Positions 2,937-34,830 of a stretch of 64,000 nucleotides of DNA are shown here, piece by piece. This stretch comes from Rhizobiales bacterium PAR1 (GTDB lineage Bacteria; Pseudomonadota; Alphaproteobacteria; Rhizobiales; Beijerinckiaceae), in assembly GCA_002256205.1 (NCBI GenBank), contig NKIW01000010.1, forward strand, positions 1 to 64,000, in the 5' to 3' direction. A program made the translations under genes and the position numbers. The notes beneath the pieces are model-generated. The model searched no databases. It had not been told where the DNA came from and saw nothing but the letters and a program-made list of their open reading frames with translations. Each line of letters opens with the position of its first letter. Within the stretch, counting starts at the first letter, position 1.

Positions 2937-4712
2937 CTACTTCACCGCCGCTTCGACCGGCGCCGTCGCCATGAATTGCGCCTGCGCGAGTGCAGCAAAG
3001 CGCCCGTTGAGCGCGACGAGCTCGTCAAAGGTCCCGCTTTCGACAATCCGGCCCTTGTCCAGCACGAGGATCTGATCGGCGTTGCGAATGGTCGCGAGGC
3101 GGTGCGCAATCACGAAGGTTGTGCGGTTTTTCATCACCTCTTCGAGCGCCTTTTGCAACTTCTGCTCGGTCGAGGCGTCGAGCGCGCTGGTGGCTTCATC
3201 AAGGATCAGGATTGGCGGGTTCTTGAGCAGCGCGCGCGCAATCGACAGCCGCTGACGCTCGCCACCCGAGAGCGAACGCCCGCGCTCGCCGACAACCGTG
3301 TTGAGCCCATCCGCCTGACGGCCAATGAATTCGAGCGCCTGCGCGCGTTCGAGCGCATCCATCATTTCGGCATCGGTCGCATCCGCGCGGCCAACCTCCA
3401 GGTTCTCGCGAATGGTCCGCGCAAAGAGCATCGGCTCCTGAAACACCACGGCGATGTTCCGCCGGAGGGATTGTAGCGAAAATTCCCGGATATCGTGTCC
3501 GTCGATCAGAATTTGACCCGATTGCGGATCAAAAGCACGATGCAGAAGCCCGAGGGTCGTCGACTTGCCCGAGCCGGTCGATCCCACGAGCGCGATGGTC
3601 TTGCCCTTGGCCACGGTAAAGCTCAGGTCGGCGATTGCCGGACGTTTGCCGTCGTAGGAGAACGAGACGTTATCGAAGGTCACTTCGCCGTTGAGCTGGC
3701 CGGCATCCGCCGCATGCGGGCGATCCTGCACTTGCGGCATTGTATCGAGAATTTTGAAGAATTCGCGCAGCTTGGGTGCCTGCATGAAGAGCTGGTTCAC
3801 AAAGCCGACCGCCGCTTCGAGCTTGCCGATCAGCAGCGTCGCATAGCCCATGAAGGTGACGATGTCGCCGACGCTCGCCTTGTCATCGAGGTGCAACCAG
3901 GTGCCCAGCAGGAAAATCGCTGTAACGGTTAGTGTCGAGGAGGCGCGAGTTGCAACCGACGCCAGCGCCCACCACGAAAGCACCGGCAACTGCGCGGTCA
4001 GCAGCCGGTCGATCACCAGGCGAAGCTGCGAGAGTTCCGCCTGCACACGGGTAAAGCTCTGGATCACAGGAATATTGCCGATGGCATCCGAGGTATGTTC
4101 GGCAAGCTCGGAGTTGAACTCTTCCACCCGCTCCTGAAGGCTCGCGGCGCGATTGACGACGATGCCCATCAACACCGCGAAGATCGCGACAAGAAACACC
4201 AGCAACAGCGCGAGCCGCCAGTTGATCAGCAGTGTGAAGGGCAGAAGGAACAGCAGCGACACCAGCGCCGTGCAGTGATCGCGCAGGAAACCGAGCCAGA
4301 GCCAGAACATGCCGGAGGCGCCATCCAGCATCACCTTGAGCGTCCGGCCGGAGTGGGTGGCGCTGTGAAAAGAGAGCGGCAGGGTCAGCACATGCTCGAA
4401 GTAGTGGCTCATCACATTGAGCCGCTGGCGATGCGCCAGCCGGTCAGCGTGCAGCGCTACCGTGACGCCGCCAAGGATCGTTACAAGGCCAAAGCCGAGC
4501 CACATGGCGATCAGCGGGAGAAGCGATTCCAGCGTCGGCTTGCTGCCTGCGATCTGCGAACCGGTCAGCAGGTTGATGATCCGTCCGAAGAGATAGGGTT
4601 CCGCGAACATCGCGACAGCCAGCGCAAGGTTGGCGAGCACCAGCAAGGCACCAAGCCGAAGCTCCGGCCCGAGCTGAAGTAGGACGCGCAGGTAAAGGCG
4701 GGGAAGCGACAT
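2937..4712 (-). CDS. ndvA: Cyclic beta-1,2-glucan ABC exporter (NdvA/ChvA type)
   Basis: A half-size ABC exporter of 591 residues with an N-terminal six-helix membrane domain (about residues 20-310) and a C-terminal ATPase. The ATPase carries Walker [10 protein letters not shown], signature [16 protein letters not shown], Walker [13 protein letters not shown] and the switch His in [14 protein letters not shown]. The N-terminal sequence, including [14 protein letters not shown], resembles the ChvA/NdvA family, which moves cyclic beta-1,2-glucan to the periplasm for osmo-adaptation and host interaction. No glucan synthase (ndvB) is in the window, so the substrate rests on family likeness only. 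Confidence 0.85.
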
Positions 4713-29920: not shown

Positions 29921-32900
29921 TCAGGACTTGCCTTCAAGCTGGGCCTTGAGGGCCGCAAGCTTGGCGAAGGGCGAATCAGGATCAGGCTGCTTGTGGGTAT
30001 CGGGCTTGCGATCTCCAAACACACGCGGCTGATTGCCGCCTTCGCGCTCGAATTTCGGCTTGCCGCCCTGCCCCGGTCGACCACCTTGCGGCTTCCCGCC
30101 AAACGGCGGACGCCCTTCACCGGGCTTGCCCTCCGGACGAGCCTGCGGAGCCCGCCCCTGTCCGGGCGCACCCCCCTCGGGACGGGTGAATTTCTCAAAC
30201 CGCTTGGCGCGATTATCGGGCCGATCTCCGGCCGGAGCGCCTTCACGCGGCGGACGACGATCCTCGCGCGGACGATCAGTACGCGGCGCGGCGCCCTCGC
30301 CCGGCGCGCCCTGCGGCGGACGATCACCACGCGGCTTGCCATGGTGGCGCGGTCGCTGGTGATCCCCACGCGGACGCTCCTGACGGGCGACGCGCCAGAT
30401 TTCGATCTCGGCCGGTTCAGCAGGAGCCTCGGCCACGGTTTCAGCAGCGACGTCAGCTGCCGGCTCTGCGTCGGAAGAAGCAACTTCTCCAGCGTCATTA
30501 ACTTCAACCGCCTCAGCAGCGGGCTCTTCAACCGGCGCGACATCAACGACTACTTCAGCCGTCATATCAGGAGCCACAGCTTCGCCAGCTTGCACAGCGA
30601 TCTCACCAGCATCCGCAGTGGCGGCTTCCAGCACCACAACCGGCTCGGTCGCAGCAATCGGCGCAGGGCGCTTGATTTCCGCCGTGATAGCCGGCCCCTT
30701 GCGGGTCTCGACCCGATAGCCAAGGGATTTAAGAATTTCACCGAACTCCGCACCTGCGCAGCCCACGAGTGAGGTCATGGCCCCCGTGACGACGAAAGCG
30801 TCGCCATCGGCAGCCCCCGCCGGCGGCTCACCCTCGGTCAGGCCGGGACGATAGGCGATGGCCGGGCGGATGAGGTCCGCAAGACGCTCGAGGATATCGA
30901 CACGGATCGCACGCGGCCCCGCCACGCGGAAACCGGCGACTCGGTAGAGCTCCTTGTCGACCGCCGGATCGACCGGGATCGAGGTACGTCCGGAGAACGC
31001 AAGATGCGAGACATCACGCAGGGCGGAAGGATCACCGCCCTTGGTGAGCGCGAAAAGCTGCGCCGCAAGGCTGCGCGGGCCGGGCTTCATCAGGGTGGGG
31101 ACGAAAATATGATAGGCACCGAAGCGCAGGCCGAGCTTGCGCAGTTCCGCGCGGGCATTCTGGTCAAGCGAGCGGACATCGTTCGCAACCACCTGCCTGT
31201 CGAGCACGCCGAGATGCTCGGAAACCTGAAATGCGATGCCGCGCGCGATGCCGGTCAGCGATTCGGGCGCTTCGAGCGCAAACAACGCGCCGAGGAGCTT
31301 GGTGATATGTGCCTTGACCCAGGCTGTCAGCCGGGTCTCGACCATCTCGCGATGCAGCCCCGCGAGGAGATCATCGGCGAGAATGAGAAAACGCGGCTCG
31401 AGAAGCCTTGCGCCGGCCTGAAGCGTCGCAATCGGCTCGCCGATATAGCGGATGATGCCATCAAGCGAGAGCTGAAGCTGATCGTCATTTGCGGTCGAGA
31501 GGCGGGTTGCCCGTGTCTCGATCTCGTTTCCGAGCGCCTTGCTGGCGGCGGCCCGCAGGGTTTTGGCCTCCTGTCCTTCCGCACTCGAATCCGGGGTGAA
31601 CCGGAATCCCTCGAGGCGTCCGACGTGCTGGCCTTCGACCAGTACTTCCCCCGTTGCCTTCACTTCAGTCTCAAGCATCACGTTCTCTTTCAGGCGGCGC
31701 ATCAGAACCGAAGTGCGCCGGTCGACAAATCGTTGCATCAGCCGCTCATGCAGCGCGTCCGATACCTTGTCCTCTAGCGTGCGCGTGACATTCTGCCAAT
31801 GCTCTGCATCACGCAACCAGTCAGGACGATTAGCACAATAACTCCAAGTGCGAATTTGTGCGAGCCGCCATGACAGCGCATCGATATCGCCCTCGATGCG
31901 GTCGCAGGCCTTGATTTCGCGGGAAAACCAGTCGGCATCAATCGCGCCCTTGCGCTGGATCGCCTCATAAAGCGACATCGCAAGATCCGCATGGCTATGC
32001 GGCGAGACTTTTCGATAATCCGGCAGCTGGCACAAATCCCACAAGCGCCGCACCGCCGGTTCGCCGCGTGCGAGATCGCGGATCGCGGGCCGGAGCATCG
32101 CGATTTCCAGCGTCACCTCGTCCTCGGCCTTGCGGGCGCGGATCAGGTTGGGGTCGCCCCCCTGCCGCGCGAGGCTCGCCTCCAGCCGTTCAACCGAGGA
32201 AAAATCGAGCGCAGAATTGCGCCATTGCGCGAGTTGCAGCGGATCAAACCGATGTGCTTCGAGTTCTTCGACCAGATCCTCGTCGAACGCCGGACAGCGC
32301 CCGGTGGTCCCGAAGGTGCCATCCTGCGTCGCGCGCCCGGCTCGCCCGGCGATCTGCGCGAATTCGGACGGGAACAGCCGCCTGTGACGCCGCCCGTCGT
32401 ATTTGCGGTCCGAGGCAAAGGCTACATGCTCGATTTCGAGGTTGAGCCCCATGCCGATCGCGTCCGTCGCGACGATATGATCGACCTCACCGGCCTGAAA
32501 CATCTCGACCTGCGCATTGCGTGTGCGCGGCGAGAGTGAGCCCATCACCACCGCCGCACCGCCTCGTTGACGCCGCACCAGCTCGGCAATCGCGTAAACT
32601 TCCTCAGCCGAAAACGCGATGATCGCCGAACGCGGCGGCAGGCGGGTTATTTTTTTCTCGCCAGCAAACGCCAGATGCGAAAGACGCGGCCGGGTCTGGA
32701 TGGTCACGCCCGGCAAGAGCCGCTCGATGATCGGCTGTGCGGTTGCGGCTCCGAGCAGCAGGGTTTCGCCCCGTCCCCGGCGATGCAGCATCGCATCGGT
32801 GAAAATATGCCCACGATCAAAATCCGCGATCATCTGGATCTCGTCGATGGCGACAAAACTCGTCGCGACCTCGCGCGGCATCGCCTCAACCGTCGAAACC

Positions 32901-33172
32901 CAGAAGCGCGGGTTCTTCGGCTTGATCTTCTCTTCGCCGGTGACGAGCGCGACCTGTTCCGCGCCCACTTTCGCGACGATGCGTTGATAGACTTCTCGCG
33001 CCAAAAGCCGGAGCGGCAAGCCGATCATGCCGGAATCGTGCCCGAGCATCCGCTCGATCGCGAGATGGGTCTTGCCGGTATTGGTGGGGCCAAGCACGGC
33101 AGTGACACCCCGTCCGCGCAACCGCGACGCAGGATCACGCGCTTCAGCCGGCAGGCGAACCGGATAGGTCAT
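29921..33172 (-). CDS. Suv3-like DExH RNA helicase with a disordered C-terminal tail
   Basis: A protein of about 1083 residues. The helicase core (about 20-450) has Walker A GPTNTGKTH, the DEIQ box in VAIDEIQMIAD, motif III-like LLGAATAQP, and motif VI in QIAGRAGRATQDG, matching the mitochondrial Suv3 / alphaproteobacterial helicase family. The last 260 residues are an Ala/Glu-rich acidic stretch, then an Arg/Gly/Pro-rich stretch, ending in a short ordered-looking motif SPFAKLAALKAQLEGK. A GTG at 33181 is an alternative start. It likely remodels RNA, perhaps within a degradosome. The GANTC-rich region is directly upstream. Confidence 0.88.
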   Translation of the reverse strand: MTYPVRLPAEARDPASRLRGRGVTAVLGPTNTGKTHLAIERMLGHDSGMIGLPLRLLAREVYQRIVAKVGAEQVALVTGEEKIKPKNPRFWVSTVEAMPREVATSFVAIDEIQMIADFDRGHIFTDAMLHRRGRGETLLLGAATAQPIIERLLPGVTIQTRPRLSHLAFAGEKKITRLPPRSAIIAFSAEEVYAIAELVRRQRGGAAVVMGSLSPRTRNAQVEMFQAGEVDHIVATDAIGMGLNLEIEHVAFASDRKYDGRRHRRLFPSEFAQIAGRAGRATQDGTFGTTGRCPAFDEDLVEELEAHRFDPLQLAQWRNSALDFSSVERLEASLARQGGDPNLIRARKAEDEVTLEIAMLRPAIRDLARGEPAVRRLWDLCQLPDYRKVSPHSHADLAMSLYEAIQRKGAIDADWFSREIKACDRIEGDIDALSWRLAQIRTWSYCANRPDWLRDAEHWQNVTRTLEDKVSDALHERLMQRFVDRRTSVLMRRLKENVMLETEVKATGEVLVEGQHVGRLEGFRFTPDSSAEGQEAKTLRAAASKALGNEIETRATRLSTANDDQLQLSLDGIIRYIGEPIATLQAGARLLEPRFLILADDLLAGLHREMVETRLTAWVKAHITKLLGALFALEAPESLTGIARGIAFQVSEHLGVLDRQVVANDVRSLDQNARAELRKLGLRFGAYHIFVPTLMKPGPRSLAAQLFALTKGGDPSALRDVSHLAFSGRTSIPVDPAVDKELYRVAGFRVAGPRAIRVDILERLADLIRPAIAYRPGLTEGEPPAGAADGDAFVVTGAMTSLVGCAGAEFGEILKSLGYRVETRKGPAITAEIKRPAPIAATEPVVVLEAATADAGEIAVQAGEAVAPDMTAEVVVDVAPVEEPAAEAVEVNDAGEVASSDAEPAADVAAETVAEAPAEPAEIEIWRVARQERPRGDHQRPRHHGKPRGDRPPQGAPGEGAAPRTDRPREDRRPPREGAPAGDRPDNRAKRFEKFTRPEGGAPGQGRAPQARPEGKPGEGRPPFGGKPQGGRPGQGGKPKFEREGGNQPRVFGDRKPDTHKQPDPDSPFAKLAALKAQLEGKS

Positions 33173-33199
33173 CTCAGGCACAAATCCGGTTGCATGCGG

Positions 33200-33655
33200 G
33201 AATCACGGGATCTTCGAACAGGTTAACGCCATGTGGGGAGAGTGGCCCCTGCTGCCAAGACGGAAAAGCACTTTTCTCGCGTTTTCCCGTCTTTTACGTA
33301 CCAGACCGGGACGGAAAGGCGCAAAAATTCCGAATCATGGCAAGTCTTCGAACAGGCACGGAACGAATCAGGCCCGAATCGCCGACGCGCATCGAGTCAC
33401 GTTTTGTTCTTTCACAAGATATGGCGACTCACTCTACTTGGAAGCCCAGATTTTGTTGATTCACTCGACTCTGCAGGTGCGAAAGGAGTCGAAACAAGAC
33501 TCAAGCATCGAGTCGAGCGAGAATCGGCGTCAAGAAAATTCTCGCACAATTCATGGTTAATACTTTCTTGCAACGGCGCAGCCGGGCTCCCGCAAAAAGC
33601 TAACGATTGGAAGAAGACGGGAACAAAGCATCGACGAATCAGCTCAAAGTGATTC
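33200..33655. promoter_or_regulatory. GANTC (CcrM methylation site) cluster upstream of the helicase gene
   Basis: The 658-base gap 33182-33839 has no credible gene. It holds fourteen GANTC sites, starting at 33200, 33332, 33365, 33376, 33394, 33426, 33458, 33467, 33486, 33498, 33510, 33521, 33636 and 33651; eleven fall in 194 bases. By hand count, 33421-33600 is 50% G+C, lower than the flanking genes. GANTC is the target of CcrM, the cell-cycle methylase of alphaproteobacteria, read by GcrA. The region also holds ATGGTTAA (33553), the reverse of the CtrA half-site TTAACCAT, and a GGTGGATAA DnaA-box-like sequence near 33763. Confidence 0.65.
33517..33545. repeat. Inverted repeat inside the GANTC cluster
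   Basis: GCGAGAAT (33517-33524) and ATTCTCGC (33538-33545) are perfect 8-base inverted repeats around a 13-base spacer. One GANTC site overlaps the left arm. It could be a protein-binding palindrome or an RNA hairpin in the helicase leader. Confidence 0.45.
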
Positions 33656-33839
33656 GCATCGCATGTTCTCCTTGGCAGCAAAAATGAGAACAGCGCGCCA
33701 TTCGGGTCATGCTATCAGGAGGATAGGCAACAGGGCTTTGCAGGCCGGGAAAATCGTGCGGCGGTGGATAACCTCGGAAAACCGCCCATGAAACCGGCAC
33801 GATCTTAATGTTTCCGTCCCGGAACGGGACAGGCACCAC

Positions 33840-34670
33840 TCAACCCGGATTAAAACCCTCGGCTTCGATCACCGTGGTGCCGATCATCGTCTTGACCGAG
33901 ATGCGATAGGGCATCAGCACCTTGCCGCCATTGACAGGCGCGAGCCAGGTATCCATCGCGCGGTTCTCGACCATGAATTTCACTGCGCGGCGCTCGGGGC
34001 GATGCCCCGCCACCGGCACATAGCGCACCGAACACACAAGCACCGGGCCGGAATAGCCCTTTTCCGAACGCACCTGCCGCGTGCCGGAATAGGAGAGGAT
34101 GACGTCGAAGCGCTGGCTGCCGTCAAAAACCGGAATACGCCGCTCGCAATTGGATTTATCGAGCGGGTCCGCCGTCCGTGACGGCATGATCAGGGCGCTC
34201 ACGGGATCCAGAACGCCAACCTTGTGCGAATCGCGCAACGGAATGCGATCTCCACCATCACTCTTGTCAACGAACGGCGGATCAATCACGACGTTCCGGA
34301 CCGAGCCGGAGGCAGCTGTGATCTGGATGGTTCGCGTCTCAGTGCCATTGGTAGCCGAGAGCGAAAAACCGTTGGTCAGAACGCCAGCGGAACCAAAATT
34401 GCCTCGCGAGGTCGCAGCGCCCCGCCCCTTGGAGACGGCCCCCATGATGCCGGTCAGCGCGGAGCTGACGTTGAGCGTGTAGCTCGTCCCCTCCAGCGAG
34501 CCCTTGATCTGCGCCTTGCCGACGGAAAGACCGGCGAGGGAAATCGCGTAATGCGCCTCGACCTCACTCGCCAGAACGGGAGCGCCAGCGAAAACCGGCA
34601 AGCACAGGAAGGCAGCGGTCGAAAATGCGAAAACAGGCTTCGCCACGCGGGTAACCGGAAAGTCTTGCAT
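33840..34670 (-). CDS. DUF3108 periplasmic protein
   Basis: A 276-residue protein with a signal peptide (about 1-36, ending PVLAS) and a beta-rich domain: AHYAISLAGLSVGKAQIKG at the start and WLAPVNGGKVLMPYRISVKT near the end, both typical of DUF3108. The domain resembles lipoprotein-carrier or lipocalin-like shells, but no function is established. The ATG at 34670 is preferred to an upstream frame. It is divergent from rpmB and upstream of the helicase, an order I recall from other Hyphomicrobiales. Confidence 0.82.
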   Translation of the reverse strand: MQDFPVTRVAKPVFAFSTAAFLCLPVFAGAPVLASEVEAHYAISLAGLSVGKAQIKGSLEGTSYTLNVSSALTGIMGAVSKGRGAATSRGNFGSAGVLTNGFSLSATNGTETRTIQITAASGSVRNVVIDPPFVDKSDGGDRIPLRDSHKVGVLDPVSALIMPSRTADPLDKSNCERRIPVFDGSQRFDVILSYSGTRQVRSEKGYSGPVLVCSVRYVPVAGHRPERRAVKFMVENRAMDTWLAPVNGGKVLMPYRISVKTMIGTTVIEAEGFNPG

Positions 34671-34830
34671 GATCAATTTAACTGCCGATCCTGAGCCACA
34701 CGACATCGCCCTGTTAGCTATTGTGTGTATCCATGGCTGATTCGTGGCAAGCCTAACGGGCAACACGCTGGAACGCAGCGATTTTTTCCGGCCTCCGCCG
34801 CAAAAATGCACGCCTCACGCTCGGGAAGCG

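Follow-up and report, generated by a model that had tools for sequence, protein, structure and literature searches.

Promoters regulated by GcrA and CcrM include that of gcrA in Agrobacterium and those of ctrA, ftsZ, and mipZ in Caulobacter, and in E. coli, clusters of GATC together with SeqA serve the sensing and titration of hemimethylated DNA. The portion of PMC11514494 used here places the action of CcrM late and describes 6 GANTC within 250 bp of the Agrobacterium gcrA promoter, the activity of which is lowered by methylation, and the excerpt of PMC4840208 reports that 99.77% of GANTC are methylated genome-wide in B. diazoefficiens. In the excerpt of PMC7987155, YGAKTCG is given as the extended GcrA motif of Caulobacter, not recovered in Brevundimonas, and GTTC-N7-GTTC as the LexA motif of Alphaproteobacteria. 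The GANTC cluster described below belongs to an ancient, helically spaced, and often tandem element in many Alphaproteobacteria. No publication on such an element was found among the open-licence articles of PubMed Central, which is weak evidence of absence.

Dense and phased GANTC sites upstream of a helicase gene

The window, i.e., the whole stretch of 64,000 nt that was analyzed, contains an intergenic region of 658 bp (positions 33182-33839). On one side it is flanked by the start of a Suv3-like helicase gene (29921..33181, minus strand; PF22527, E = 7.9e-27; Helicase_C, E = 4.9e-10), and on the other it is bounded by the 3' end of a DUF3108 gene (33840..34811, minus strand; PF11306, E = 1.9e-20). 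The first-pass annotation had placed a GANTC cluster in intergenic DNA upstream of this helicase gene, and this location was confirmed. Its counts of 14 sites in 33200-33655 and of 11 sites in the 194 bp of 33332..33525 (no strand assigned) were exact on direct recount, and its intervals of 11 bp, of 12, 12, and 11 bp, and of 32 and 32 bp between neighboring sites were likewise correct. The helical phasing derived from them holds for the window, since the 11-site array gives Rayleigh R = 0.68 at 10.5 bp (p = 0.001 versus random placement).

Over the whole 64-kb window, 122 GANTC were found, whereas dinucleotide shuffles averaged 351; the word is generally avoided, so the cluster stands out more than the expectation of 1 in 256 suggests. 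Sampled as 20 stretches, each 20 kb long, 400 kb of the 4.2-Mb genome contained 684 sites, i.e., 1.71/kb with a maximum of 4 in any 200 bp, and at this rate the Poisson probability of 11 sites within 194 bp is ~1e-13. Within the 658-bp intergenic region, GANTC ranked at the top of the 16 words of the form XYNY'X' (14 occurrences; runner-up, 6), base shuffling of the region gave a mean of 2.5 and a maximum of 9 sites (2000 shuffles), and the triple GANTC-N7-GANTC-N6-GANTC occurred a single time genome-wide, in the cluster at 33200-33655. Chance or base composition as the cause of the cluster was ruled out by the shuffles and the 400-kb sample.

The genome encodes GcrA (E = 6.1e-52) and a CcrM-like methylase (PF01555 and PF18755), and none of the intergenic DNA in 464 kb, about a tenth of the genome, was equally dense in GANTC; a missing CcrM gene or many equally dense regions were what the first-pass annotation would have counted against its reading. 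The YGAKTCG motif fits 7 of the 14 sites, on one strand. An TTAACCAT sequence at 33553..33560 on the minus strand, which we take to be CtrA-like, recurred in four of seven genus sequences (window included) and in none of 16 others. Scanning of the region for a consensus (sigma70) promoter and a terminator gave nothing above shuffles, and the missing promoter counts against control of the helicase gene by this region. A plasmid element was rejected, the region being without match in the plasmid collection. A further N6/N4 methylase, with a ParB-type N-terminal part by eye, is encoded on the window's contig (L005, G000:C14:109184-109819).

A conserved unit of about 80 bp underlies the cluster

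The first-pass annotation was right about the cluster itself and overlooked the larger element. The GANTC cluster sits on a conserved DNA unit of ~80 bp with GTTC/GAAC blocks, and a degenerate second copy follows at 33601-33656. The conserved blocks of the unit follow one another at intervals of about 11 bp, in the order A.AT.T.G, GtGAAC, GAA, gtcagcGATTCG, GTTC, GttC, and TtAA. The consensus of 86 aligned matches, read in the helicase direction, is C.A.AT.T.G..GtGAACaaA.c..GAa.......gagtcagcGATTCGg.c..g.ttcGTTCc......GttCc.a...TtAA, with 82 bits of information in total, uncorrected for kinship. Its blocks start at positions 14 (GAAC), 25 (GAA), 37 (gtc), 47-48 (CG), 59 (GTTC), 70 (GttC), and 80 (TtAA), near one block per 11 bp across about 70 bp. 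In our reading of the consensus, GAAC/GAA and GTTC/GttC appear mutually inverted around position 43.5, and GATTCG is next to the center. An early alignment gave a core around GAGTCAGCGATTCGG..CGATTCGTTC-N7-GTTC, and one rule recognizes 71 of 81 sequences; row L091, which entered one of the alignments on the wrong strand, is disregarded.

Two models were used, R1, a sequence-only model of the core, and R2, a second sequence model of the unit. The helicase-proximal, GANTC-rich copy in the window was located at 33342..33424 on the minus strand by R2 (59.0 bits, E = 5.8e-17) and at 33333-33426 by R1 (68.6 bits), both models having been built in part from the window's own core. On the same strand, the alignment places the central GATTC at 33376..33380, sequence and alignments the left box GAAC-N7-GACT at 33395..33409, and the motif scan the right box GTTC-N7-GTTC, which is LexA-operator-like, at 33350..33364. 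The unit nearest to the gene carries up to five CcrM sites at steps of 8-11 bp. The center was GANTC in 85 of the 86 aligned units, one of the 85 being a spurious reverse-strand match in L185; the exception was the distal unit of L184.

Two further candidates were tried and rejected. For a LexA motif built from the genome's own GAACN7GAAC sites, the other matches listed in the window and the 400 kb lay inside long reading frames that are probably genes, and for a recA-type promoter, R1 was without match in six recA loci or 20 background stretches.

Tandem copies

Two to four tandem units were present in many genomes, including that of the window, where the degenerate distal unit lies ~250 bp farther from the helicase gene (33601..33656, minus strand; R2, 21.7 bits, E = 2.6e-5, or E = 2.7e-4 when searched over the whole genome). 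With R1 it scored 12.7 bits, no better than a match of 13.0 bits within the helicase gene (31235-31270). Matching second copies were found in 12 of 12 genus loci. The 29 spacings between units in 22 loci ranged from 142 to 284 bp, plus one of 789, with 22 of the 29 within 199-259 bp; these values are approximate because the matches were cut at different ends.

Proximal units held a mean of 3.86 GANTC (n = 22) versus 1.52 in distal units (n = 29), a comparison that covers 22 of 23 multi-unit sources, chosen for more than one unit and with the window left out. The proximal unit exceeded every distal unit in 20 of the 22 multi-unit loci, which argues for control of the helicase gene; exceptions are L186 and L195, whose proximal copies are not rich in GANTC. 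Distal units held mostly one or two sites, counts that are lowered by some distal matches being only 44-66 nt long.

Distribution and conservation

The helicase-relative scan kept 80 loci. In 24 of the 31 loci counted first, the best 200 bp contained 6-12 GANTC, always upstream of the helicase gene, and the dense loci came from Rhabdaerophilum and its genus, Bradyrhizobium, Afipia, Nitrobacter, and further drafts. Seven loci had only 1-4 sites (Camelimonas, Methylocapsa, Methylocella, two of Bauldia, Rhodomicrobium, and L085). R1 matched 221 of 297 genomes of the window's order, in 88 of 122 genera, and gave no match at E up to 10 in the 400-kb sample of the window's genome. The comparison with relatives proposed by the first-pass annotation was therefore answered by conservation of the cluster.

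Of 289 genomes sampled within the class, R2 matched 30, including 27 that belong to other orders. Applied to 38 of the 80 helicase loci, it matched 31 and left seven unmatched, namely, Camelimonas L046, Bauldia L080 and L082, Rhodomicrobium L084, L040, L033 (little upstream DNA), and L079 (no upstream DNA); the match in L085 was weak. Overall GANTC density was very low, about 0.5/kb, in L084 and L085, where the unit is absent or weak. In genus g16 (family f1), none of the five genomes listed had the unit under strict filters. In L036, the record of which is titled Frankia sp. RB7, helicase and unit were Bradyrhizobium-like, and the name looks wrong.

At E up to 1e-20, 211 of the 289 class genomes had a CcrM-like gene, namely, 29 of the 30 with a unit versus 182 of the 259 others, which favors methylation-sensitive control of the helicase gene. 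Against it stands G517, a draft that is 92% complete, with a unit present and a CcrM match absent.

Signs of selection on GANTC sites

The statistics on selection for GANTC were based on 94 distinct cores picked by a rule with GAGTC..CGATTCG and GTTC-N7-GTTC. Relative to the central GATTC, GANTC recurred at -19/-18, -8, +11, and +22, with shares of 77% at +11 and 65% at +22; the shares of 89% at -8 and 100% at 0 are partly built in because both sites are part of the picking rule. Column independence, which ignores kinship, would give 6% at -18 and 38% at +22 versus the 31% and 65% found, and this statistic is weakened by kinship, which inflates the counts. At these two positions, which the picking rule does not cover, the middle base varied (C15/T11/A3 at -18; C30/G30/A1 at +22) while GA..TC was kept, as expected if methylation is selected, and the pattern looks like a methylase site rather than the fixed sequence of one protein or an RNA stem. 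GANTC density fell from 45/kb in the core to 18/kb across the 310 bp upstream of it, compared with 1.8/kb for the remaining sequence of 68 loci. The 124-fold enrichment of the motif is partly built in, since most of the named loci were picked by the same motif rule, and no weight is placed on it here.

Linkage to the Suv3-like helicase gene

The link between unit and helicase gene is well supported. In the first linkage set, the helicase gene lay downstream on the same strand in 46 of 49 unit-bearing loci, or in 44 of 47 distinct places, two locus pairs being the same place and one further stretch a control; the three exceptions (L176-L178) were second copies from Bradyrhizobium, fetched deliberately. 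The gene was downstream in 18 of 20 loci of the second set, 15 of 17 outside the window's order, and in 15 of 15 of the third, ten of them new. These counts cover a subset of the 221 unit-bearing genomes.

Several loci speak against control of the helicase gene. The second Bradyrhizobium copy precedes a convergent gene and has no helicase, L206/L216 likewise has none, L203/L217 retains just a 17-residue helicase fragment about 1.7 kb off, beyond other genes, and the distance from unit to gene varies from about 40 to about 650 bp as estimated from the alignment. In L176, L177, and L178, the stand-alone unit is situated between a cupin-like gene (by eye) and the convergent gene, and the 3' end of a possible ORF of ~45 aa reaches into the left half of the unit; this ORF is alike in all three, with a start of MSS followed by EELT (by eye). 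In L219 (G017:C114), the DUF3108 and helicase genes are no longer neighbors; a weak match (E = 5.6e-4) lies at about 3675-3752 of the locus, downstream of the DUF3108-like gene (by eye), and another unit remains with the helicase.

Chromosomal location

The unit is on the origin side of the chromosome and not at the origin. In 21 of 21 single-contig chromosomes, from 11 genera, where the helicase gene adjoined the unit throughout, the distance between unit and parS was 34 to 608 kb, or 0.5-13% of the chromosome. Separately calculated distances of about 500 kb of 8.3 Mb in BTAi1, about 450 kb of 9.2 Mb in CCGUVB4N, and 180 kb on the same contig in R. calidifontis agree with this range; in the window's genome, unit and parS are on separate contigs. 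Strain TSA1 disagrees, with a unit about 3.2 Mb from parS. Shared gene order may be the reason for this location.

Boxes resembling TTATCCACA, presumably a DnaA-box motif, occurred near 8 of 70 units (10 in total), four times denser than elsewhere in the loci. The distance from parS and the scarcity of these boxes near units rule out the replication origin that the first-pass annotation had considered. An exact TTATCCACA was located just upstream of the unit in L201 and L202, from one genus of another order.

Proposed function and alternatives

We give about even chances to the reading that this region controls the Suv3-like helicase gene in cis, in a manner sensitive to CcrM and GcrA. The element consists of ~80-bp units, often in tandem, with blocks on one helix face, GAAC/GAA and GTTC/GTTC being inverted around GATTCG. 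That it faces the same gene in the same direction in different orders suggests that it acts on helicase transcription. CcrM would methylate the GANTC sites of the unit, and the locus, because it is replicated early, would, given the published CcrM timing, stay hemimethylated for much of S phase. Hemimethylation may then alter the occupancy of GcrA/sigma70 and of a protein on the GTTC/GAAC blocks, for which LexA is one candidate, and the change in occupancy would time or gate transcription of the helicase gene. The most economical form would be an operator-promoter array switched by the passage of the early fork and reset by the late action of CcrM. The nearest tested precedent is the Agrobacterium gcrA promoter.

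The tandem units, the ~11-bp phasing, the stand-alone second copy in Bradyrhizobium, and the position within 0.5-13% of the chromosome from parS in all single-contig chromosomes could also be expected of a DNA-architecture or replication-linked element not mainly for the helicase, that is, a phased nucleoprotein array sensing or titrating hemimethylated DNA. We consider this unlikely, since linkage and polarity with one gene are constant across orders, distal units mostly hold one or two GANTC, TSA1 departs from the location, shared gene order may account for it, and we know of no SeqA-like reader of GANTC. The same array could mainly be a set of LexA (SOS) operators, with GANTC as by-products of overlapping GATTCGTTC-type half-sites. 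GTTC-N7-GTTC or its complement was present in 21 of 23 regions chosen independently of the motif, GAACN7GAAC stood upstream of recA in six of six genomes, and alphaproteobacterial LexA sites easily overlap GANTC according to the excerpt of PMC7987155. However, the right box was exact in 42 and the left box in 6 of 86 aligned units, falling to 2 and 0 of 16 outside the window's order, GA..TC was kept at -18 and +22 with a free middle base, and the 310 bp upstream of the core is rich in GANTC at 18/kb versus 1.8/kb elsewhere, which together make this account improbable. Among proteins that might bind the unit, LexA is a candidate, but beyond the window's order most LexA-type boxes deviate from the motif.

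Readings in which the unit acts as RNA or encodes a peptide fare no better. Small-RNA genes arranged in tandem, or an RNA leader on the helicase transcript, would suit the tandem copies, the polarity, and the stand-alone second copy, yet RNAalifold gave three pairs, none with both sides changed, the variable columns of the likeliest helix (GAAC/GTTC) paired no more than shuffles, and the unit had no Rfam match; a structured RNA was dismissed on the absent Rfam match and covariation, and the RNA reading as a whole seems about as doubtful as the LexA one. Conserved small peptide genes are very improbable: an open frame runs across the GATTCG block in some copies (by eye), but conservation was without three-base periodicity (1.14/1.06/1.09 bits by phase) and the left half of the unit has gaps of one and two bases.

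Beyond control of the helicase gene by methylation, we tentatively suggest, well short of an even chance, an alphaproteobacterial sensor of methylation state, in which a tandem, phased, origin-side array kept across orders would be bound by a dedicated protein complex that reads full or half methylation of GANTC and relays this replication signal to the gene of an RNA helicase. Functionally, such a sensor would correspond to GATC/SeqA but be built on CcrM. Control DNA conserved in such detail across orders is rare in bacteria, and here CcrM sites, together with a predicted protein that binds the repeats, are tied to an RNA helicase gene in a part of the chromosome that is replicated early. The consensus and the two models provide a concrete sequence for testing how the methylation state of GANTC is read.

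Comparison with known systems

As in repABC promoter and origin loci (PMC11514494, in the portion used here), GANTC is over-represented at the control region, but in contrast to those loci, the unit is chromosomal, with no rep genes seen adjacent and no sign of an origin. It shares with alphaproteobacterial LexA operators a repeat with an 11-bp period and an exact box, found in the window and in most of the regions examined from the order, and differs from them in having two boxes inverted around GATTCG, tandem copies, and, in about half of the units aligned, inexact boxes. Dense, phased methylation sites that are expected to be hemimethylated after replication recall the GATC clusters with SeqA at oriC of E. 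coli, although the methylase of the unit is a different one, its place is away from the origin, and a SeqA counterpart is not known to us. As with GcrA/CcrM-regulated promoters, conserved GANTC sites are clustered upstream of a gene, the genome encodes both CcrM and GcrA, and half of the 14 sites fit the extended motif. The regulation predicted here would differ from that of those promoters in the DNA it acts on, which has more sites, is phased on a repeated 80-bp GTTC/GAAC unit, and is conserved across orders.
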